From Rubrivivax sp. (lineage in GTDB: Bacteria > Pseudomonadota > Gammaproteobacteria > Burkholderiales > Burkholderiaceae_C), in assembly GCA_026125665.1 (NCBI GenBank), contig JAHCKS010000011.1:1-64000 (forward strand): a DNA stretch of 64,000 bases. Direction: 5' to 3'. The notes beneath the pieces were generated by a model. The model did no database searches and had not been told where the DNA came from. It saw only the letters and a list, made by a program, of their open reading frames with translations. The translations under genes and the position numbers were made by a program. Positions 34,047 to 46,981 of the stretch are shown here, piece after piece. How positions within the stretch are numbered: the stretch's first letter is position 1; each line of letters opens with the position of its first letter.

Positions 34047-34352
34047 GTGATCCCCGGCGAACTGCTGCCCGCCGCAGGCGAGCATGAGCTCAACCCCGGC
34101 TGCACGACGCTGACGCTGCGCGTGGCCAATACCGGCGAGCGCCCGATCCAGGTCGGTTCGCACTACCACTTCGCCGAGACGAACGCCGCGCTCGACTTCG
34201 ACCGCACCGCCGCCCGCGGCATGCGCCTGAACATCCCGAGCGGCACCGCGGTGCGCTTCGAGCCGGGGCAGGCGCGCACCGTCGAGCTCGTCGCCTTCGC
34301 CGGCGCGCGGCGCGTGTTCGGCTTCCGTGCGCAAGTGCAGGGGGACCTCTGA
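34047..34352 (+). CDS. ureB: Urease subunit beta
   Basis: This is the 101-residue beta subunit of urease. MIPGELLPA (from a GTG start), [19 protein letters not shown] and [17 protein letters not shown] are diagnostic. GTG at 34047 is the only start that gives the normal length. It ends at a TGA directly touching the structured repeat that separates it from ureC, unlike the tight ureB-ureC spacing normal for urease operons. Confidence 0.96.
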
Positions 34353-34659
34353 GATGAAACCTGTGCAGGTGGTGGCGGGATCGGGCCGGCGGGGTGCCCT
34401 GCTCCGCGAATGTCCTCTTTCGGCGGCCCTGCTCCGCAAGCTGCGCAGGGCCCCCGAACGCCCCCTTGATTTCGCTGCGCAGGGCACCCCGCCGGCCCGA
34501 TCCGGCACCGGCAGTGGCGCACCATCGAAGACAAACCACGGTGCCACGCCAAGGACGGCGGGTGGTCGGCGTAGCGAAATCAAGGGGGCATTCGAGCGCC
34601 CAGCGAAGCTGGTCGCTCGAAAGAGGACATTCGCGGAGGCGACCACCCGGCGGCCTTGG
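34351..34659 (+). repeat. Composite element of interlocking inverted repeats between ureB and ureC
   Basis: No gene fills the 377-nt gap. It contains exact or near-exact inverted pairs: 34378-34401 with 34480-34503 (24 nt, perfect); 34403-34422 with 34618-34637 (20 nt, perfect); 34461-34476 with 34573-34588 (16 nt, perfect); 34549-34568 with 34640-34659 (20 nt, two mismatches). A hairpin at 34592-34620 has 13-nt arms with one mismatch. The first 70 nt recur inverted at 1-67. The remaining bases to 34729 show nothing recognisable beyond the ureC leader. It looks like a mobile or repeatedly rearranged noncoding element. Confidence 0.85.
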
Positions 34660-34729
34660 CGCGCCACGACCTCGATCGTGTCGAGATTCATGGATCGCCG
34701 TTCGCGCGGCGCGCGCTGGAGCGACTGAC

Positions 34730-36457
34730 ATGGCGAAGATCGGCCGCCGCGCCTACGCCGAGATGTACGGCCCCACGGTCGGCGACCGGCTGCGCCTCGC
34801 GGACACCGCGCTCGTCATCGAGGTCGAAGAGGACCACACGCTGAAGGCCGGCGGCTACGGCGAAGAAGTGAAGTTCGGCGGCGGCAAGACCATCCGCGAC
34901 GGCATGGGCCAGAGCCAGCGCGCCAACGGCCCGGGCGCCGACGACGCCGTGGACACCGTCGTCACCAACGCCGTCATCGTCGACCACTGGGGCATCGTCA
35001 AGGCCGACATCGGCATCCGCGGCTGCCGCATCGCCGCCATCGGCAAGGCCGGCAACCCCGACGTGCAGCCGGGCGTGGACATCGTCATCGGCCCGGGCAC
35101 CGAGGTCATCGCGGGCGAGGGCATGATCGTCACCGCCGGCGCCATCGATTCGCACATCCACTTCATCTGCCCGCAGCAGATCGACGAGGCGCTGGCCAGC
35201 GGCGTGACGACGATGTTCGGCGGCGGCACGGGCCCGGCCACCGGCACGCTCGCCACCACCTGCACGCCGGGGCCGGCGAACCTGGCGCAGATGCTGCGCG
35301 CCGCCGACGCCTTCCCGATGAACCTGGGCTTCCTCGGCAAGGGCAACGCATCGCGGCCGCAGGCGCTGATGCAGCAGGTCGAAGCCGGCGCCGTCGGCCT
35401 GAAGCTGCACGAGGACTGGGGCACCACGCCGTCGGCCATCGACACGTGCCTGGGCGTGGCCGAAGCCACCGACACGCAGGTGTCGATCCACTCCGACACG
35501 CTGAACGAATCGGGCTTCGTCGAGGACACGATCGCCGCGACGAAGGGCCGCACGCTGTGCGCCTTCCACACCGAAGGCGCCGGCGGCGGGCACGCGCCGG
35601 ACATCCTGCGCGTGGTGGGCGAGGCGAACTTCCTGCCCTCCTCCACCAACCCGACGATGCCGTACACCGCCAACACGGTGGACGAGCACCTGGACATGCT
35701 GATGGTCTGCCACCACCTCGATGCGTCGATCGCCGAGGACCTGGCCTTCGCCGAGAGCCGCATCCGCAAGGAGACGATCGCCGCCGAGGACGTGCTGCAC
35801 GACCTGGGCGCCATCAGCATGATGAGCAGCGACAGCCAGGCGATGGGCCGCGTCGGCGAAGTCATCATCCGCACCTGGCAGACGGCGCACAAGATGAAGG
35901 TGCAGCGCGGTGCGCTGCCGGGGGACGGGCCGCACAACGACAACGCGCGCGTCAAGCGCTACGTCGCCAAGATCGGCATCAACCCGGCGCTGGCCAACGG
36001 CCTGGCGCACGAGGTCGGCAGCATCGAGGTGGGCAAGTGGGCCGACCTCGTGCTGTGGAAGCCGGCGCTCTTCGGCGTCAAGCCGAGCCTGGTGCTGAAG
36101 GGCGGCTTCATCGCGCTGGCGGCGATGGGCGACGCCAACGCCAGCATCCCGACGCCGCAGCCGGTGCACTACCGGCCGATGTTCGGCAGCTACGGCGGCG
36201 CGGTGGCGCGCGGCTCGCTCACGTTCATGAGCCAGGCGGCGGTGGCCGCGAGCGTCGCTCAACGGCTGAAGCTGCAGAAGACGGTGAGCGCCGTGCGCGG
36301 CTGCCGCACGGTGAAGAAAGCCGACATGGTGCTGAACGCCTACACGCCGCGCATGGAGATCGACGCCCAGACCTACGAGGTGCGCGCCGACGGCATCCTG
36401 CTCGGCTGCGAGCCGGCCACGGAGCTGCCGATGGCGCAGCGGTACTTCCTGTTCTGA
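34730..36457 (+). CDS. ureC: Urease subunit alpha
   Basis: This is the catalytic subunit (575 residues). The nickel-bridging carbamylated lysine is Lys225 in GLKLHEDWG; nickel-binding histidines lie in [10 protein letters not shown] and in [12 protein letters not shown], and the flap His is in [20 protein letters not shown] (His328-329). Numbering runs about eight ahead of the Klebsiella enzyme. The ATG at 34730 gives [20 protein letters not shown], the normal N-terminus. The segment upstream is the structured repeat. Confidence 0.98.
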
Positions 36458-37212: not shown

Positions 37213-37863
37213 ATGAACACGCAGCTGCATCACATCGCCCATCGCACGAAGAAGCTGCCGCCGCTGCGCGTGGGCGTCGGCGGGCCCGTCGGCTCGGGCA
37301 AGACGACACTGGTCGAGATGCTGTGCAAGGCGATGCGCGAGCGCTGGGACCTGGTCGTCGTCACGAACGACATCTACACGAAGGAGGACCAGCGGCTGCT
37401 CACGGTGGCCGGCGCGTTGCCGGCCGAGCGCATCATGGGCGTGGAGACGGGCGGCTGCCCGCACACGGCGATCCGCGAGGACGCCTCGATCAACCTCGAG
37501 GCGGTGGACCGGATGCTCGAGAAGTTCCCGGACGCCGACATCGTGTTCATAGAGAGCGGCGGCGACAACCTGGCCGCGACCTTCAGCCCGGAGCTCTCGG
37601 ACCTGACGATCTACGTCATCGACGTCGCCGCCGGCGAGAAGATTCCGAGGAAGGGCGGCCCCGGCATCACGAAGAGCGACCTCTTCGTCATCAACAAGAC
37701 CGACCTCGCGCCGCACGTCGGCGCCAGCCTCGACGTGATGCGCGCCGACACCGAGCGCATGCGCCCCAACCGCCCGTGGGTGATGACGAACCTGAAGACG
37801 CGCGAAGGGCTGGCGGAGGTGGTGCGCTTCATCGAGCGCAAGGGCCTGCTCGTTGAGGCGTGA
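37213..37863 (+). CDS. ureG: Urease accessory GTPase UreG
   Basis: UreG is the SIMIBI GTPase that carries nickel into apo-urease. In 216 residues the P-loop GPVGSGKT (24-31), the nickel-binding Cys-Pro-His (Cys82, His84 in [13 protein letters not shown]), [10 protein letters not shown] and the NKTDLAP guanine motif are all visible. The N-terminus has three His in ten residues ([10 protein letters not shown]), fewer than in UreG proteins that store nickel. It starts 7 nt after ureF. Confidence 0.97.
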
Positions 37864-37870
37864 CGACGCG

Positions 37871-38788
37871 ATGGCGGTGCCGGCCGCAGCGGCCCCGGCG
37901 CGCCCCGGCTGGGCCGCGCGGCTGGCGCTGCGCGTCTGGCGCGACGGGCCGGCCACGCGCGTGCACGCAGCGCACGAAGGGCCCCTTCGGCTGCTGAAGG
38001 CGCTGCACCCCGAGGGGCCGGGCATCGCGCACGCGGTGTTGCTGCACCCGCCGGGCGGGCTCGTCGGCGGCGACCGGCTCGACGTGGAACTGCAGGTCGA
38101 GGCCGGTGCGCATCTGCTCGTCACGACCCCGGCGGCGAGCCGCTTCTACCGCAGCGTCGCGGGCGAGGCGGCGCAGGTGATGCAGGCGAAGGTGGCCGAA
38201 GGGGCGCGGCTCGAGTGGTTGCCGCAGGAGACGCTGGCCTACGACGGCTGCGACGCGCGCAACGCCTGGCAGGTGCAGCTCTCGCCGCGCGCTTCGCTGA
38301 TGGCGACGGAGGTGCTGGCGCTCGGCCTCGGTGCGGCGGGGCGCCCCTTCGCGCAGGGGCGGTTCGTGCAGCAGCTGGCCATCGAGGGACTGTGGCGCGA
38401 GCGCGGCGTCATCGACGCAGCCGACGCGGCGCTGCTCGACGGACCCTGCGGGCTGGCAGGTCGGCACGTGCTCGGCACGCTGCTGCTCGCGGCGGCCGAG
38501 GCTTTGTCGCCGCAGGTGGCCGAGCATGCGCTTGCCGCGGCCCGGCAGGCGATCGACGCGGCCACGAGCACCCTGCCGGGCGAGAGGTCCGCCCAGGTGC
38601 ACGGCGGTGTGCCCGGCAGCGAGCCGATGCTCGCCGGCGCGACGCTGCTGCAGGGCCGATTGCTGCTGCTGCGGGCGCTGGCGCACGACGTGCAGCCGCT
38701 CGCGCGGCTGCTGCGCGACGTGCGCGGCCACTGGCGCCGCGCCGTGTGGGGCCTCGGCGCGAACGAACCGCGCCTGTGGGCGCTGTGA
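37871..38788 (+). CDS. ureD: Urease accessory protein UreD
   Basis: UreD (UreH) is the scaffold that docks UreF and UreG onto urease. The 305-residue protein contains LLHPPGGLVGGDRLDVELQV and TTPAASRFYRS, then LEWLPQETLAYDGC, all typical. The start at 37871 lies 8 nt after ureG. Its position at the end of the cluster is unusual; in most betaproteobacteria ureD comes first. Confidence 0.95.
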   Translation: MAVPAAAAPARPGWAARLALRVWRDGPATRVHAAHEGPLRLLKALHPEGPGIAHAVLLHPPGGLVGGDRLDVELQVEAGAHLLVTTPAASRFYRSVAGEAAQVMQAKVAEGARLEWLPQETLAYDGCDARNAWQVQLSPRASLMATEVLALGLGAAGRPFAQGRFVQQLAIEGLWRERGVIDAADAALLDGPCGLAGRHVLGTLLLAAAEALSPQVAEHALAAARQAIDAATSTLPGERSAQVHGGVPGSEPMLAGATLLQGRLLLLRALAHDVQPLARLLRDVRGHWRRAVWGLGANEPRLWAL

Positions 38789-38947
38789 CGGCGACGGCGC
38801 TGCTCTCGCGAGAAGCTGAACCTTGCTTCGTGCGGACTCGCGGCGCGCAAGTCCGAGGCGCTCGTGGTCTTGACGCGCGAACACTCGAACGGCGGCACGG
38901 CGCTGCGAGTCCCCGCCCGCCCGGGCGCCACCCACGTACGTCGAGGG

Positions 38948-39064
38948 CCGATGCCGTGGGGCCGCTCAGGGCGTGGCACCCGAGGCGCGGCGGCGGCGGT
39001 GACGTTCGCTTGGACCTTCGTCGTGTGTTCGGGTGCCATGCCCTGAGTGGCCCCACGGCATCGG
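38948..39064. repeat. Long inverted repeat (37-nt arms) between ureD and the next gene
   Basis: Arms 38948-38984 and 39028-39064 are complementary apart from three positions, separated by 43 nt. This dominates the 349-nt gap 38789-39137 between the convergent ureD and DUF4340-LuxR genes; I see no reading frame or promoter there. There is no T-run after it, so it is not a classic terminator, but the arms could form a very stable hairpin at both 3' ends. Confidence 0.8.
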
Positions 39065-39137
39065 CCCGGCGCGCCCGAATCGTGCGGCGCCCACCGCTTC
39101 TTCGCGAACGCCGGGCGCAGTCGCGGGCCTGGAATGC

Positions 39138-40676
39138 TCAGGCGCGCCCGGCGAGCAGCTTGTGCACCAGCTCCGGTGTGGTCGCCGCGCCGGTCTTGCG
39201 CATCAGCCGTGCGCGGTACACGTCGACCGTGCGCGGGCTCACCGCCAGGCGCCGGCCGATGCCCTTGCTGGTGAGGCCCTCGATCAGCAGCGCGGCGATC
39301 TCGCGCTCGCGTGGCGTGAACTCGACGCGCAGGACACGCTGCGACGAGAGATCCTCGAAGGCCCAGATGCCTTGCGCATGCGGCTGATCGGGGTCGAGCG
39401 CGCGGCCGGAGACATGGCACCAGAAGAGCTCGCCGGCCACCGCGCCGCCGAAGGGACCCAGGCGCTTCATCACCCGTTCGTCGCTGTAGCGGCCTTCGCC
39501 GTCGAGCTGCGCGCCGATGCGCTCGGCGATGCGCGCGCCGGTGCGCTCGAACTCCACCGCCGTGGGGTAGAGCAGCTCGAAGCTGCGGCCCACCAGCATC
39601 TCGCGCGTGGCGCCGAACATCTTCAGCAGCTCGCGGTTGACGTCGACCATCAGCCGCTCGCGGGAGATGACGAGCCCCACCGGGGCCATCTCGAAGGCGA
39701 CGCGGTGGTCGAGCGTCGCCGGCGCGGCGACCGACGTGCCAGGCGCTCGGCTCGCCCAGGCCCCGGCGCGCGCCGCTTCGTCGCGGCCGCGCAGGCCCGT
39801 GAAGCCGAGCTCGGCGATCGCCTGCGCGCCGCTCGGCGGCGCCGTCGAGCTTGCGCCTGCGGGCAGCCCGCTCGCCTGCCACGCGGCGCCGGCAGCGGAG
39901 TGCGTGGCAGCACCCGCCGCCGGGGCACTGCCCGCGCCATCGGCCGCCGTCCCGCTGGCCGCCGCCGCCGGGTCGGCCACGGCCGAAGCCGCAGCCCCCG
40001 CGGCCGGTGCCACTGCGGCGCGCGCCAGGCGCAGCCCGTCGATCTCGATCGCGTCGATCTCGGCCCGCGGCACGCGCAGCGCGTTCTTGTCGAGCCATTC
40101 GTCGGGCTTGGCCGGCAGGTCGTAGGTCGGCCAGTCCACGCTCAGCACGGCCGCTTCGCCGGCCTTGCGCGCGTGCGTGCGGCGTGCGCCCTGCGAAGTG
40201 CCGAGCAGCAGCGTGGCCACCACCTTGCCGCCGGCCCCTTGGGCCCCTTGGGCCTCTTGGGCCCCTTGGGCCACTTCGGCCTGCACGCGGCGCTCGAAGC
40301 CCTGGTCGGCGACCTTGAAGCGTTCGATCGCCTCGGCGCTCGTGGCCACCGGGTCGCCGGCCTTCAGGCCGTGCAGCTTGTCGATCACTTGGCGCACGCG
40401 CGCCGCATCGGCCGGGAAGTCGCCGGCATCGGCGACGACCCAGGCGGCCTCTGCGCCCGCGCCGCGCCGCCGCAGCTCGACGCGCGCGTTGTCCGGGCCC
40501 TCGATCACCAGCCGCTGCACGGCCACCACGTCGAACGTGAAGAGCGCGCGCGGCTCGCCGCCGCCGCTCGTGCGCCCCTGCCACCAGGCCAGGGCCGCGG
40601 CCAGCGCCAGCTGCGCCGCCAGCAGCAGCGCCAGGCCGCGCAGCGGCGCGTTCGTCTTCATCGCGAGGGTGGTCAT
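39138..40676 (-). CDS. DUF4340 domain protein fused to a PAS-LuxR transcriptional regulator
   Basis: This 512-residue protein joins two unrelated parts. Residues 1-304 are a DUF4340 protein: a TM helix (about 12-34, LRGLALLLAAQLALAAALAW), then VAVQRLVIEGPDNARVELRR and WPTYDLPAKPDEWLDKNAL, ending abruptly after LRGRDEAARAG. Residues from about 318 form a PAS domain (DHRVAFEMAPVGLVISRERL), and about 445-505 a LuxR helix-turn-helix (FTPREREIAALLIEGLTSKG, SPRTVDVYRARLMRK). No ATG, GTG or TTG in frame lies just before the PAS part. The N-in helix would place the HTH in the periplasm. It ends an exporter operon, 16 nt after the permease gene. Confidence 0.85.
   Translation of the reverse strand: MTTLAMKTNAPLRGLALLLAAQLALAAALAWWQGRTSGGGEPRALFTFDVVAVQRLVIEGPDNARVELRRRGAGAEAAWVVADAGDFPADAARVRQVIDKLHGLKAGDPVATSAEAIERFKVADQGFERRVQAEVAQGAQEAQGAQGAGGKVVATLLLGTSQGARRTHARKAGEAAVLSVDWPTYDLPAKPDEWLDKNALRVPRAEIDAIEIDGLRLARAAVAPAAGAAASAVADPAAAASGTAADGAGSAPAAGAATHSAAGAAWQASGLPAGASSTAPPSGAQAIAELGFTGLRGRDEAARAGAWASRAPGTSVAAPATLDHRVAFEMAPVGLVISRERLMVDVNRELLKMFGATREMLVGRSFELLYPTAVEFERTGARIAERIGAQLDGEGRYSDERVMKRLGPFGGAVAGELFWCHVSGRALDPDQPHAQGIWAFEDLSSQRVLRVEFTPREREIAALLIEGLTSKGIGRRLAVSPRTVDVYRARLMRKTGAATTPELVHKLLAGRA
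40233..40277 (+). repeat. 9-nt tandem repeat inside the DUF4340 gene
   Basis: Five 9-nt units, GGCCCCTTG with single substitutions in the third and fifth, encode Gln-Ala-Gly/Glu triplets (GAQEAQGAQGA) in the DUF4340 part. The copy number could vary between strains without changing the frame. Confidence 0.85.
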
Positions 40677-40692
40677 CGCATCGGCCTCCTCG

Positions 40693-43623
40693 TCATGCCG
40701 CCTGCAGCACGAGCTGCGCGCGGCGGTCGTCGGCGCGGCGCACCCAGCGCCGCCAGCCCCACACCGCGGCCAGCGCCGCCAGCGCGGCCAGGTAGTTGCC
40801 CATCTCCCAGCGGCGCTGCGCGCCTTCGGGCAGTGCCTCGAGCGTGCGCGCGAGCTGCGTGCGCCCGCGCAGCTCGAGCAGCGCCGGGTCCTCGAGCGCC
40901 CAGTCGATCGTGTTCTGCAGGAACTCCAGCGGCTTCGTGTACAGCGTCTGCAGCCCCTGCGACGCGAGGTCGATCGCGAGGTCGGAAGCGAACGTGTTGC
41001 TGGCCACCAGCACGAGCCGCGCCGTGGCCGGCGACTGCTCGATGACGCTCGTGGGCCGGCTGTCCTCGGCCGCTGCGGGCGCCGACGCCGCGGCCCCGCG
41101 GGCCGAGGCGGCCGGCCCGGCCGCCGCCAGCGGCGAGGGCTTGCCCTTGTAGAACGACGTGAAGCGCCCCTGCAGCGCCACCGCGAGCGGCCGCGGCGCC
41201 GCCTCGCCCTCGAGCTTGAAGCCGAGCGGCGGCTGACCGCGCGTGTCGGGCACGAGCTGCAGGTCCTTCGACAGCCGGCTGCCGGCCGAGCTGCGCAACA
41301 GCTCGGTCACCGCGAGCCCCTGCGCCTTGGCCGGGTCGACCCTGACCGGCGAGGCCCAGTTCAGCGTCAGCTGCTGCAGCGAGCGCGTGATGGGGCTGTC
41401 GCCGTCGAGCGACTCGCCGCGCAGGTCGGCGAAGTGCGGGTACTTCAGCAGCCGGATCTCGCGCACGGGCAGGCCGCCAAGCGTGCGCTCCACGGGCACG
41501 GGCAGCGCGGCGCTGCGCGGATCGACCACCATCGCCTCGTCGATCGTGACGCCGAAGCCGGCCAGCCACTCCTCCAGGCCCGAGGCCTGCTTCACCGCGT
41601 CGATGCCCGAGCCCATGCGCACGTCGAAGGGCGATGTCGCGAGCACGACGGGGCCGCCGCGCATCAGGAACTGGTCGATCGCGAAGCGCTGCCGGTCGGT
41701 GAGCGCGCGCGGCGCGGCCACGAGCAGCAGGTCCACGTCGTCGGGCACGCGGCCGTCGGCGAGGTCGGCGTAGCGCAGCCGCGTGCCCTCGCCCAGCACC
41801 TGCTCCAGCCGCTGGTAGCTCGGGCCGGGCGGCGCCATGCCCGGCGGCATGCCGGGCAGCGCGGGCGTGGCCGGTGGCGACACCAGCCCCACCGTCCTCA
41901 GGAAACCCGGCGCCATGCGCTTGAGCGCCGACTGCAGCGTGCGCTCGAGCGCGGGCCGGTCCAGCGTGTCGGGAAGCGGCACCTGCACGAGCTCGGCGCC
42001 GTCGTCCAGCAGCATCGTGAACCAGAACGGCTGCGGGTCCGCAAGGCTCGCGATCTGCGGCGCGAGGCCGTACTTCTGGCGCAGCTCGCGCGCGAGGGCA
42101 CCGCCGTCGGCGTCGGGGTCGGCGAAGCGCACCTCGAGCTTGCCGCCGCTCTTGCCGCGCTGCTCGTCGAGCACCGCCTGCAGCTCGGCGCGCAGCCGGC
42201 GCAGCGGCGCGGGCAGCCGCGCGTCGGGCGAGACGTAACCCCTGAACGTGACAGGCCGCGCGAGCGTCTGGAACGCATTGCCGCCGGCCTGGTACGCGCC
42301 CACGGCCTTGCGGATGGCGCGCGTGATCGCGTACTCGGGGTTCTTCAGCACGACGGTGAGCGCCTCCTCGCCGCGGCCCTTCACCTCGATCAGGTCGCGG
42401 AAGCCGAGCTTCTCCACCTGGTCGCCGTAGCTCACGACGACGTCGAAGTACGAGCTCACCACCGCGGCCTGGTAGCGGTCGGCGGTCTGGAACGGCACCG
42501 GGCGCACGCCGTAGCGGCTCGCGGCCTCCTCCTCGGCGGCGCGGTCGCGCGTCGGGTCGACGATCTCCACCCGCGCGCGCGGACCGGCCGCCGCGGCGTA
42601 CTCGCGCAGGAGGTCCTGCAGGCGCGGCACGAGCGGCGCCAGGTACGGGTGCGTGCGGGCCGAGAAGTAGCCGCGGATGACCAGCGGCTCGCGCAGCCCC
42701 TGCAGCTGCGTGCGCGTGGCCGGCGAGAGAGTGAAGCCGCGCTCGGCCGTCAGGTCCAGCCGCAGCCACGGCACGGCGGCCAGCCACAGGTTCACCGCCG
42801 CGAGGTTGGCCGCCAGCAGCGCCGCGAGCGCCGTGCGCGCATGGTGGCGAGGGCTCGCGGGGTTGCCGGCCCAGCGCAGCCGCTCCAGGCTGTAGACGTT
42901 GAGCACGAGGAACAGGCCGGCGAGCGTCGCGAAGTAGGCCAGGTCGCGCAGGTCGAGCACGCCGCGCGTGATGGCCTCGAAGCGCGCGCCGGTGCCCAGC
43001 GCCTCGAGCCAGCGGCCCATCGGCTGGCCCACGAGCGAGGTCAGCACGGGCGAGCCCACGAAGTGCAGCAGCGCGCACACCACCACCGTGCCGATGAGGG
43101 CGATGATGGGGTTGTCGCTGCGCGCGCTCACTGCCAGGCCGATGGCCGCGTAGGCGGCGGCCAGCAGCAGCGTGGCGACGTAGCCGCCAGCCACCGGGCC
43201 CCAGTCCAGCGGCCCGAGCAGCGCCACCGTCAGCGGCAGCGGCAGCGTCAGCAGGAGCGCCAGCGCCACCAGCGCCAGCACGGCGAGGAACTTGCCCAGC
43301 ACCAGCGACCACGGCGCCACCGGCGCGGTGAGCAGGCTCTCCAGCGTGCCCATGCGCCGCTCGTCGCTCCACGAGCGCATCGTCAGCGCCGCGACGAGGA
43401 AGACGAGCAGCAGCGGCAGCCAGCGGAACAGCGGCCGCGCGTCGGCGATGTTGCGCGCGAAGAAGGTGTCGATCCAGAAGAAGGCGAACAGCACCGCGGC
43501 CAAGAAGGCGCCGAGGAATAGGTAGGCCGCGGGCGAGGCGAAGAAGGCGCGGAACTCCTTGCGCGCCACGCGCAGCGCCGTGGGCCACGGCGCGAGCTTG
43601 CGCCCGAGGGCGGGTTCAGGCAT
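40693..43623 (-). CDS. ABC-2 permease fused to a GldG-type auxiliary domain
   Basis: This 976-residue membrane protein combines the two subunits usually called GldF and GldG. Residues 1-240 are an ABC-2 permease with about six TM helices (AYLFLGAFLAAVLFAFFWID and others); then a TM and a large extracytoplasmic ABC_transp_aux region begin at TLSPATRTQLQGLREPLVIRG. A last TM (NYLAALAALAAVWGWRRW) is near the C-terminus. It overlaps the ATPase gene by 8 nt and precedes the DUF4340 gene. Similar systems occur in many nonmotile bacteria, so a gliding role should not be assumed; the cargo is unknown. Confidence 0.88.
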   Translation of the reverse strand: MPEPALGRKLAPWPTALRVARKEFRAFFASPAAYLFLGAFLAAVLFAFFWIDTFFARNIADARPLFRWLPLLLVFLVAALTMRSWSDERRMGTLESLLTAPVAPWSLVLGKFLAVLALVALALLLTLPLPLTVALLGPLDWGPVAGGYVATLLLAAAYAAIGLAVSARSDNPIIALIGTVVVCALLHFVGSPVLTSLVGQPMGRWLEALGTGARFEAITRGVLDLRDLAYFATLAGLFLVLNVYSLERLRWAGNPASPRHHARTALAALLAANLAAVNLWLAAVPWLRLDLTAERGFTLSPATRTQLQGLREPLVIRGYFSARTHPYLAPLVPRLQDLLREYAAAAGPRARVEIVDPTRDRAAEEEAASRYGVRPVPFQTADRYQAAVVSSYFDVVVSYGDQVEKLGFRDLIEVKGRGEEALTVVLKNPEYAITRAIRKAVGAYQAGGNAFQTLARPVTFRGYVSPDARLPAPLRRLRAELQAVLDEQRGKSGGKLEVRFADPDADGGALARELRQKYGLAPQIASLADPQPFWFTMLLDDGAELVQVPLPDTLDRPALERTLQSALKRMAPGFLRTVGLVSPPATPALPGMPPGMAPPGPSYQRLEQVLGEGTRLRYADLADGRVPDDVDLLLVAAPRALTDRQRFAIDQFLMRGGPVVLATSPFDVRMGSGIDAVKQASGLEEWLAGFGVTIDEAMVVDPRSAALPVPVERTLGGLPVREIRLLKYPHFADLRGESLDGDSPITRSLQQLTLNWASPVRVDPAKAQGLAVTELLRSSAGSRLSKDLQLVPDTRGQPPLGFKLEGEAAPRPLAVALQGRFTSFYKGKPSPLAAAGPAASARGAAASAPAAAEDSRPTSVIEQSPATARLVLVASNTFASDLAIDLASQGLQTLYTKPLEFLQNTIDWALEDPALLELRGRTQLARTLEALPEGAQRRWEMGNYLAALAALAAVWGWRRWVRRADDRRAQLVLQAA

Positions 43624-44647
43624 CGGCCACCTCCTTCACGGCGGCGGCCGCGGGGGCCGCCGATGCGGCTTCGTGGGCGGGCACGGCGCCGGCATGCGCC
43701 GGCGCCTCGTTGACGCGGGCGAAGACGGTCTCCAGGTCCTGCCGCGCGGGCTGCAGCGCGTGCAGCGGCAGGCCGGCGCGCGCCAGGGCCTGCACGAGCT
43801 GCGGCGCCAGCGTGCGCTCGGCCTGCACGTGGTAGTGGCGCAGCCCGGCGGGCGCGGCTGCCGCACCGGGCTCGCGGCCCGCGTCGGCGCCCGGCTCGGG
43901 GCCGAGTTCCTGCACGGCCTGCACGCCGTGCACGCCGGCCAGCACGGCGCGGGCGTCGCCGGCCACGGTGAGCCGCAGCCCGTCGTCGTGCGCCAGATCG
44001 GCCAGCCGCGCGTCGACGACGAGGCGGCCGCCGCGCATGATGAGCGCGCGCTGGCACACCGCCTGCACCTCCTGCAGGATGTGCGTGGAGACGATGACGG
44101 TGGCGTGGGCGGCGAGCTCGCGGATGAGGTCGCGCATGTGCCGGATCTGCGTCGGATCGAGCCCGTTGGTGGGCTCGTCGAGGATCAGGATGTCCGGCGC
44201 ATGCAGCAGCGCCTGCGCCACGCCGACGCGCTGCCGGTATCCGCGCGACAGCATGCCGATCTGCGCCGTGGCCCGGCTGCCGAGCTCGGTGCGGCGCACG
44301 GCGCGCGCCACTGCGCCGTCGCGCTCGTGCGCCGGCACGCCGTGCAGCGCCGCCTGGTAGTCCAGGTACTCCAGCACCGTCATCTCGGGCCACACCGGGC
44401 AGTTCTCCGGCAGGTAGCCGATGCGCCGCCGCGTCGCCGCGGACTCCGGCCGCACCTCCTCGCCGTCGATCAGCACGCGGCCCGAAGTCGGCTCGAGGTA
44501 GCCGGTCATCATCTTCATGATCGTCGTCTTGCCGGCGCCGTTGTGCCCGAGCAAGCCGACGATCTCGCCGCGGCCGATGTGGAAGCTCACGTCGTCCACG
44601 GCCACCAGGTCGCCGTAGCGCCTGCACAGCTGCTGTGCATCGATCAT
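43616..44647 (-). CDS. ABC transporter ATP-binding protein (GldA/NatA type)
   Basis: This is the ATPase of the exporter (343 residues). Walker A is GHNGAGKT (about residues 34-41), the signature is LSRGYRQRVGVAQAL and Walker B is ILILDEPTNGLDP, followed by STHILQEV. The C-terminal 100 residues carry an Ala/Gly/Pro-rich insert not needed for catalysis. The ATG at 44647 gives MIDAQQLCRRYGDLVAVDDV, the normal start. It is the first gene of the three-gene unit. Confidence 0.93.
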   Translation of the reverse strand: MIDAQQLCRRYGDLVAVDDVSFHIGRGEIVGLLGHNGAGKTTIMKMMTGYLEPTSGRVLIDGEEVRPESAATRRRIGYLPENCPVWPEMTVLEYLDYQAALHGVPAHERDGAVARAVRRTELGSRATAQIGMLSRGYRQRVGVAQALLHAPDILILDEPTNGLDPTQIRHMRDLIRELAAHATVIVSTHILQEVQAVCQRALIMRGGRLVVDARLADLAHDDGLRLTVAGDARAVLAGVHGVQAVQELGPEPGADAGREPGAAAAPAGLRHYHVQAERTLAPQLVQALARAGLPLHALQPARQDLETVFARVNEAPAHAGAVPAHEAASAAPAAAAVKEVADA

Positions 44648-44865
44648 GGTTGCCAGTCCCGATGTCAAGGTCGCGCGCAGGCTCGCGGCGCGGCGACGCC
44701 CGCCGGCCCGCGTGCGCGAATCCCGTGGCCACGAAAGCCCGGGCGCGCGCGAAATGCGGGCGGCCGCGGGCGTTTCAAGGGCCCCCTGGCCCGGCTCCGG
44801 GCGACGTTGCAGTGATGCCCGGCGGTGCGTGACGGCGATGCTCCGGCCACGCTCCCCGGCGCGCC

Positions 44866-45285
44866 TCAGGCACGGTGGTGCGACGGCGGCGCGGAGGCGG
44901 GCGCGGACGGCGGCGCGGACGGAGGGAAGCGGCCCGCGGCCTGCAGCCGCTTGCGCACCGGCGTGAACGCCCACCAGTCGAGTGCCTCGCCGGTGCGCGC
45001 CTGATGGATGACGGCGGCGAAGACGTCCCACACGCAGGGATCCTGCCGCCGGCCGGTGCGCGCCTGCAGCGCCGCGTAGAGCGCATCGGGCTCGCAGGCG
45101 GCAAGCTGCTCGAGCGTGTCGACGCCCAGCAGCGCGAGGTCGGCGCGCATCGCCGGCCCGATGTTGCGCAGCCCGCTCAGAGCGTCGTGGGTCATGGGGC
45201 GGCGCGGGCCGCGGCGCGCGCCGGCAGGTGAGGCGGACGGCGAGGCGGGCGAGGGAACCGGAGCACGGGCGGCACGGGTCTTCAT
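44866..45285 (-). CDS. Cdd1-like helix-hairpin-helix protein
   Basis: This 139-residue protein has a basic, Pro-rich N-terminal stretch, then a helix-hairpin-helix domain of the Cdd1 (pathogenicity locus) type. LRNIGPAMRADLALLGVDTL is the hairpin, and DPCVWDVFAAVIHQARTGEAL and WWAFTPVRKR complete the domain. Such domains bind DNA nonspecifically in other families; no direct role is known here. A good Shine-Dalgarno (GGAAAGGAG) precedes the ATG. It starts 16 nt after imuB, so it may belong to the same damage-induced transcript. The downstream 218 nt up to the ABC ATPase gene hold no clear feature. Confidence 0.75.
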   Translation of the reverse strand: MKTRAARAPVPSPASPSASPAGARRGPRRPMTHDALSGLRNIGPAMRADLALLGVDTLEQLAACEPDALYAALQARTGRRQDPCVWDVFAAVIHQARTGEALDWWAFTPVRKRLQAAGRFPPSAPPSAPASAPPSHHRA

Positions 45286-45301
45286 GCGAGTCTCCTTTCC
45301 T

Positions 45302-46981
45302 TCATGCAAACCTCCCTTGCAGCATCCACTGCACGTCAGTCGTCGCGGCTGCGCCCCCACCTCCTGGCCCGGCCGCAGAGGGCAGGCGTTGGCGCCACAC
45401 CCACACCAGCGAGCCGTCGGCGGCCAGCGCGATGAAGTAGTCGCGCGCTGCGGGTTCGCCGTCCCACCAGCCGGCCTCGATGCGCTCGGGGCCTCTCACC
45501 AGCTGCAACGGCTGGCCTTCCAGCAGCGGCAGGCCGTGGCGCTCGGGCAGCGGCAGCGGCTCGGGCAGGAGCCACACCGGGCGATGCAGCGGCAGCGCCC
45601 GGTCTTTGGGAGGAACCTTGCGATGCAGCGGCAGCGCCCGGCCTTCGCGCGGGCTCGCTCCGGCGGTGTCCGACCTGCCGGCACGCTCGGCGCGCTGAGG
45701 GCGCCTGCCTGCCAGCGGCGCAGCCGAACGCGCCACCGCCGCGCTGCCGGACAGCGCAGGCAGGCTGCGGCTGGCGCGCTCGGGTCGGTGGTCGGCGACA
45801 GGCTCGAGCCGCTGCACCTGTGCATCGCCCAGGCGCGCGCGCAAGCGCTCGAGCAGGCGCGCCAGGCCCAGCGACTCGCTGCCGCGCGTGGGAAACAGCT
45901 CGGCGTTGGGCGGCGCGCAAGCCACGGTGTCGCGGCAGCGCAGGTGCAGCTCCAGCGTCGGCGCGGCGAGCTGCACGTGTGCCAGGCGTTCGCGCAGCAG
46001 CAGCTGCAGGTGCGCCGGGTCGAGCGCCGGTTCGGCCAGCTCGATGCGCAACACGGTGGCCGGCGGCGTGCCGCCTCTTTCGCGGTGGCGTGGCTCGTGC
46101 TGCATCGACAGCGTGAAGGCGGCGATGCGCACCTGCCGCGCGCCGGCCCACGCGACGAGGCGCGCCAGCAGCACGGAGGCGGCCACGAGCACCTGCTCGG
46201 CATGGTCGGCACGCTGGTGCAGCTCGAGCCTCGCCTCGAAGGCGGCTGGCAGCTCGATCCAGCGCCGCGGGTCAGGCGCGCGGCCGAAGGCGCGGTCGAG
46301 CTCGTCGAGCAGCCCTTCGCCGAAGCGGCGCGCCAGGCCGGCACGAGGCAGGTCGCGCAGGTCGGCCAGCGTGTGCAGGCCCATGCCCTGCAGGGCTTCC
46401 CAGTGCTCGCGCCCGGGACCGAGCAGCCACACCGGCGCGGCGGCAAGCAGCTGAACGAGCGCGGGCAGGCGGGTGGCGTGCGGGCCGAGCACCGGGTCGA
46501 AGGACGCGCTGGCCGCCGCGCCCTTCCCCCAGCGCGCCAGCAGGGCCGCACCGAGTGCCGTGGGCGCCGCAGCGATGCGCACGCGGTGTGCCAGAGGCGC
46601 CAGCGCCGCGCGCAGCTGCTCTACGAGCTGCGCCACGCCTCCGTACAGCCTCAAGCTCGCGCGGACCTCCATCAGCACGCAGGGCTGGCCGTCGTGCAGC
46701 GCGACGGCGGGCGTGAAGGCGAGCGCGGTGAAGGCCACGGCCTGCAGCGCCGCGGCGTCACGCGCGGCGTCGGCTTCGCCAAGCAGCAGCTCGCGGGCGA
46801 GTGCCAGCGCGGTGGCGCGTTTCATGCCCGCACGCACGCCGCGCGCCGCCGCAGCGGCGTTGACGGCCGTGATGCGGTGCTCGGCCAGCAGCGCCACCGG
46901 GCCCTGCGCTGCCCCGGGCGGCAGCGTGGCGCAGAAGGCCTCCAGCGAGAGCAGCGGCAGATGCAGGGCCAGCCACAACAT
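45302..46981 (-). CDS. imuB: Mutasome protein ImuB, Y-family polymerase homolog
   Basis: ImuB is the hub of the mutagenic translesion cassette: a catalytically inactive Y-family polymerase homolog that links ImuA and ImuC (DnaE2) to the sliding clamp. The 559-residue protein shows the palm/fingers region (HRITAVNAAAAARGVRAGMK, then PTALGAALLARWGKG) and helix-hairpin motifs (LQGMGLHTLADLRDLPRAGL), with a C-terminal Pro/Arg-rich region. Catalytic acidic residues of Y-family enzymes do not appear conserved. It overlaps nothing and lies 69 nt after imuA. Confidence 0.88.
   Translation of the reverse strand: MLWLALHLPLLSLEAFCATLPPGAAQGPVALLAEHRITAVNAAAAARGVRAGMKRATALALARELLLGEADAARDAAALQAVAFTALAFTPAVALHDGQPCVLMEVRASLRLYGGVAQLVEQLRAALAPLAHRVRIAAAPTALGAALLARWGKGAAASASFDPVLGPHATRLPALVQLLAAAPVWLLGPGREHWEALQGMGLHTLADLRDLPRAGLARRFGEGLLDELDRAFGRAPDPRRWIELPAAFEARLELHQRADHAEQVLVAASVLLARLVAWAGARQVRIAAFTLSMQHEPRHRERGGTPPATVLRIELAEPALDPAHLQLLLRERLAHVQLAAPTLELHLRCRDTVACAPPNAELFPTRGSESLGLARLLERLRARLGDAQVQRLEPVADHRPERASRSLPALSGSAAVARSAAPLAGRRPQRAERAGRSDTAGASPREGRALPLHRKVPPKDRALPLHRPVWLLPEPLPLPERHGLPLLEGQPLQLVRGPERIEAGWWDGEPAARDYFIALAADGSLVWVWRQRLPSAAGPGGGGAAATTDVQWMLQGRFA
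45581..45641 (-). repeat. Internal duplication in imuB
   Basis: The 22-nt sequence at 45581-45602 recurs at 45620-45641, giving the peptide RALPLHR twice (GRALPLHRKVPPKDRALPLH). It looks like a 39-nt tandem duplication with drift in the Pro-rich part of ImuB. Confidence 0.75.

Follow-up and report, generated by a model that had tools for sequence, protein, structure and literature searches.

Does this organism make a transporter subunit that runs on into a DNA-binding regulator, or were two separate genes joined in the assembled contig? The question is raised by one minus-strand frame (39138-40676) in the window, the 64,000-nucleotide stretch of Rubrivivax sp. DNA analysed here, whose contig (C13) is one of 268 in the genome (G000). 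We consider the fusion frame most likely to be an assembly chimera.

The open frame and its two halves

The features of the region are given below in window coordinates, with G, C and L numbers standing for genomes, contigs and loci.

37853-38788, plus strand: ureD, left neighbour (Pfam); near an IMS gene without the ABC operon in G012, G073 and G083
38795-39141, no strand: copy of a dispersed repeat, which matches 136 stretches of the genome including the window's own
38945-39067, no strand: inverted repeat within the dispersed repeat, with 39-nt arms at 38945-38983 and 39029-39067
39138-39713, minus strand: PAS and LuxR/GerE regulator (Pfam/NCBIfam; DNA similarity to G012 and G009)
39716-39772, minus strand: junction zone, sharing words with the end of contig C192
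39765-40676, minus strand: truncated DUF4340 part, ending about 65 residues before its 358-aa homologue in G021 (Pfam; G021 alignment)
40693-43623, minus strand: fused GldF/GldG-like ABC permease and auxiliary domain, upstream of DUF4340 (Pfam, NCBIfam; same gene order in G021)
43616-44647, minus strand: ABC transporter ATPase, its start at 44647 picked by eye
45302-46981, minus strand: IMS (impB/mucB/samB) family gene, flanking the inserted block on the right

An open-reading-frame check of the window confirmed that the frame encodes 512 aa from an ATG start without internal stop, and the earlier note's description of DUF4340, PAS and LuxR parts in one frame was borne out by Pfam and NCBIfam. 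DUF4340 (PF14238) was found at residues 79-211 (7e-14; 52.9 bits against a cut-off of 25), which places this part in the family, with a match that spans only profile positions 1-119 of 183. GerE (LuxR) was found at residues 453-505 (2.1e-13; 50.1 bits, above cut-off). The PAS models of Pfam, at about residues 325-445, all scored below their cut-offs, and the S-box PAS model TIGR00229 of NCBIfam passed (25.9 against 22.9 bits); by these two models, GerE is preceded by PAS, as in a PAS-LuxR regulator. A single hydrophobic stretch, judged by eye, lies near the N-terminus at about residues 13-33. Long open frames are frequent in this DNA, where 56 frames of at least 100 aa overlap 13 kb.

The two halves in related genomes

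The DUF4340 profile matched ten of 61 genomes, and within the genus these were G000 and G021; in a sequence search of 61 genomes, residues 10-288 were matched in G021 only among the other same-genus genomes. With the N-terminal part as query, three of 81 genus genomes gave a match (G000, G021 and G076). Neither the G021 nor the G076 DUF4340 frame has a regulator attached; each is closed by a stop codon of its own. The G021 homologue, of 358 aa, was aligned with the window protein cut at residue 304 and extends for about 65 residues after the alignment ends; the complete C-terminus present in G021 is missing from the fusion. When the final 88 residues of the G021 protein were searched against G000, the missing DUF4340 C-terminus was not found elsewhere in the genome (best E 0.65, not meaningful). 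A distant relative from Desulfonema magnum (27% identity), the sole match of a contig scan, was left unused.

Between ureD and the IMS gene, the window has a 6.5-kb block (38790-45300); this interval was compared with loci L110, L112 and L113. The genomes G012, G073 and G083 were picked from a ureD search that matched 59 of 80 genomes. The gap between ureD and IMS is about 80-90 bases in G012; in G083 it holds a gene with a VTT domain, and G073 has, as judged by eye, a similar one there. Since all three are without the ABC operon at this place, the operon is, as judged from gene order, accessory content at a variable place. The ureF and ureG genes are separated by about 4.7 kb in G012 (L110:4514-9213) and adjacent in the window.

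The regulator part (about residues 310-512) was matched in 27 of 36 other same-genus genomes of the 61-genome search, at E 3.1e-42 or better; a close LuxR match is absent from the other nine, so the gene is not universal. By BLAST, residues from about 317 to 512 share about 69-88% identity with 26 same-genus loci and 43% with a paralogue in G020. Twenty stretches were examined, 19 with a PAS-LuxR gene and one (L066, from G021) with the DUF4340 operon. A divergent CoA-transferase A gene lies 5' of the regulator in all 19 of these longer loci, and a thioesterase gene directly before it in 15. CoA-transferase A is also found beside PAS-LuxR in 11 of another 12 loci, which are shorter, and is lacking only at the 43%-identical paralogue. 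The count is then 30 of the 31 related loci tested; a weak G046 match (L033) and three matches of 41-48% identity (G035:C292, G002:C316, G009:C31) fall outside this count. In several of eight relatives compared, the regulator start lies near or overlaps the thioesterase stop. Gene labels such as scoA, ybgC and yceH are presumptive; the families were verified separately.

These addresses bear directly on the origin of the frame. The earlier note had proposed a deletion that fused two neighbouring genes, and DUF4340 and LuxR genes were never neighbours in the relatives examined, so this reading was rejected. It had also held that relatives with two adjacent genes and an independent start for the regulator would speak against a fusion; a separate LuxR gene with its own start does exist in relatives, but at a different locus and not next to DUF4340.

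Further fusions were sought more widely. Among the matches listed in an order-wide search of 399 genomes, with three candidates scored in each, none spans both halves except that of G000, and none of 69 matching plasmid records covers 80% of the fusion query. A G027 match (query 79-510, one TGA) was considered as a second fusion and rejected: G027 has no DUF4340 match, its LuxR gene is preceded by a thioesterase gene among the usual neighbours (L061), and its BLAST matches begin at residue 316. Likewise, matches in G009, G031, G036 and G028 that start at query residues 215-236 were taken as extension into the Ala-rich linker, as these genomes give no DUF4340 match and their BLAST matches begin at residues 313-323.

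We also weighed a functional regulator anchored in the membrane and released by proteolysis, which would link the export operon to transcription. One open frame, an N-terminal hydrophobic stretch and PAS plus LuxR sequence without internal stops are all as this reading would have them. However, the arrangement is seen in one genome, with no second example among the matches listed, and in a truncated DUF4340 protein; the topology argument would put the regulator in the periplasm; the usual address of LuxR and its likely start codon are elsewhere, and PAS-LuxR stands alone in the related loci tested. The processed, tethered regulator suggested by the earlier note is thus very improbable.

Contig ends around the native LuxR slot

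When 20 kb of G012 was used as query against G000, the neighbourhood of the LuxR gene was found in three pieces: the CoA-transferase/thioesterase side at C192:51-3686, that of the response regulator on contig C152 (3162 bp), and LuxR itself at C13:39138-39713. The native flanks of the displaced piece therefore both terminate at contig ends, as expected for a chimera. C192 stops 57 bases past the thioesterase stop, and its final 60 bases are 93% G+C. When C192 and C13 are joined at the 9 bases that they share, a LuxR regulator of 212 aa is obtained, comparable to the proteins of relatives, with a GTG start overlapping the thioesterase stop. A start codon of its own and the CoA-transferase address are both absent from C13 and both appear on reading C192 into the LuxR part. 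This fits the observation of the earlier note that no ATG, GTG or TTG lies near the LuxR part, the likely native start being on C192. In our view it is nearly certain that LuxR is native to this genome and that the assembly shows it away from its normal position.

C152 ends with 14 bases, CTCTCGAGAAGCTG, that form the left terminus of the dispersed repeat as in L117, in the same orientation as the C13 copy; its last three bases, after CTCTCGAGAAGCTG, are unlike the repeat copies. The order C152, repeat, LuxR, C192 fits that of the relatives with the repeat added. Contigs C109 and C152, adjacent by synteny, have ends of 83% and 93% G+C without exact overlap, which indicates that breaks in G+C-rich ends do occur in this assembly.

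The right end of the repeat copy in C13 lies at the LuxR stop codon and its left end 6-14 bases after ureD. Each copy accounts for several of the 136 matching stretches, since there are inverted repeats within the element. The repeat measures at least about 350 bp, its termini lie near CTCTCxAGAAGCTGAACC and GGGATGCTCA, and copies are found at L114-L123 and elsewhere in the genome. A second repeat is present at 34341-34740, between the ureB-like and ureC genes, and part of it recurs on the opposite strand at bases 1-73, the contig start (96% identity over 74 bases).

The position of the junction, near residue 304, is resolved only to 39716-39772. DNA similarity to the G012 regulator begins at 39713 (86% over 576 bases), and 39716-39724 is identical to the last 9 bases of C192. 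A 14-base word at 39759-39772 also occurs near the C192 end; it was considered as the crossover and set aside, since the bases beyond it disagree and the 9-base word fits better. A 9-base match by itself is modest; its position and frame make it telling.

Origin of the join

A probable assembly error is suggested because LuxR is a separate gene elsewhere in relatives and its slot here is broken by two contig ends. The real genome would then carry a stand-alone PAS-LuxR gene in the order CoA-transferase, thioesterase (C192), LuxR, repeat, response regulator (C152), and the ABC export operon with a complete DUF4340 gene would lie between ureD and the IMS gene. A piece composed of the repeat and LuxR would have been joined into C13 through the many-copy repeat on the ureD side and within G+C-rich sequence on the DUF4340 side. 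Many-copy repeats and G+C-rich sequence are usual points at which assembly fails. Several observations stand against such a chimera. The overlap of 9-14 bases is shorter than the exact overlap that assemblers normally need, and the mode of join is unexplained. The contig is otherwise collinear with relatives (with G012, save for insertions in either), and the join contains no Ns and keeps the frame open. Across the junction, 60-base windows are 78-85% G+C, not clearly richer than the adjoining DUF4340 coding sequence at 82%. Moreover, the 9-base word is frequent, with 19 occurrences in the window on both strands; similarity to the G009 regulator begins at 39727, slightly before this word; and the deviating last three bases of C152 and the patchy presence of LuxR in the genus count on the same side.

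The same evidence may be read as a real, recent rearrangement without function, in which the repeat together with LuxR was transferred, by a move or by a copy, into the 3' end of the DUF4340 gene. One side of the insertion would be due to recombination between repeat copies and the other to joining at short homologies, and the resulting protein would be a broken transporter subunit whose regulator domain would lie on the wrong side of the membrane. A many-copy repeat offers the homology, the junction has 9-14 bases in common with the C192 end, and the ureD-IMS interval is variable in relatives. A copy would leave both native flanks ambiguous, which could explain the ends of C192 and C152. However, a simple move gives no reason for contig breaks at the old site, whereas a copy should yield overlaps of a full assembly word at the contig ends, where C192 has only 9 bases and C152 14, and the genome yielded a single LuxR of this kind. 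We regard such a rearrangement as unlikely, though far less so than a working tethered regulator; if real, the junction would illustrate repeat-assisted gene displacement and be of modest interest. Of the three origins offered by the earlier note (deletion, protein processing, misassembly), it is misassembly that is best supported, and the other two are unsupported. With the assembly chimera as the preferred reading, we infer that the DUF4340-LuxR join is absent from the cell. The case shows a way to check an in-frame "novel domain fusion" when the assembly is fragmented and G+C-rich: one locates the normal home of each half, and asks whether the old neighbours stop at contig ends.

The frame can be compared with three known systems. 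The DUF4340 subunits of GldF/GldG-like ABC transporters in G021 (L066:7194-8270) and G076 have DUF4340-like sequence and an Ala-rich linker, as here; the N-terminal hydrophobic stretch is common to the G021 subunit and the fusion, the G076 start being off its contig, and the gene order ATPase, permease, DUF4340 is the same in G021 and the window. In contrast to these subunits, the fusion lacks the last 65 or so residues and runs on into LuxR. Its regulator half is like the stand-alone PAS-LuxR (GerE) genes beside CoA-transferase A, at about 69-88% identity, but here a DUF4340 part takes the place of the 5' end and the usual neighbours are not alongside. Regulators of the ToxR/CadC type, whose DNA-binding domain is of the winged-helix kind, resemble the fusion in that a single chain carries both a membrane segment and a DNA-binding domain. 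In ToxR the DNA-binding domain is cytoplasmic (PMC7496328). The domain order and the predicted topology of the fusion, the latter based on one hydrophobic stretch judged by eye, are opposite to those of the ToxR/CadC type.
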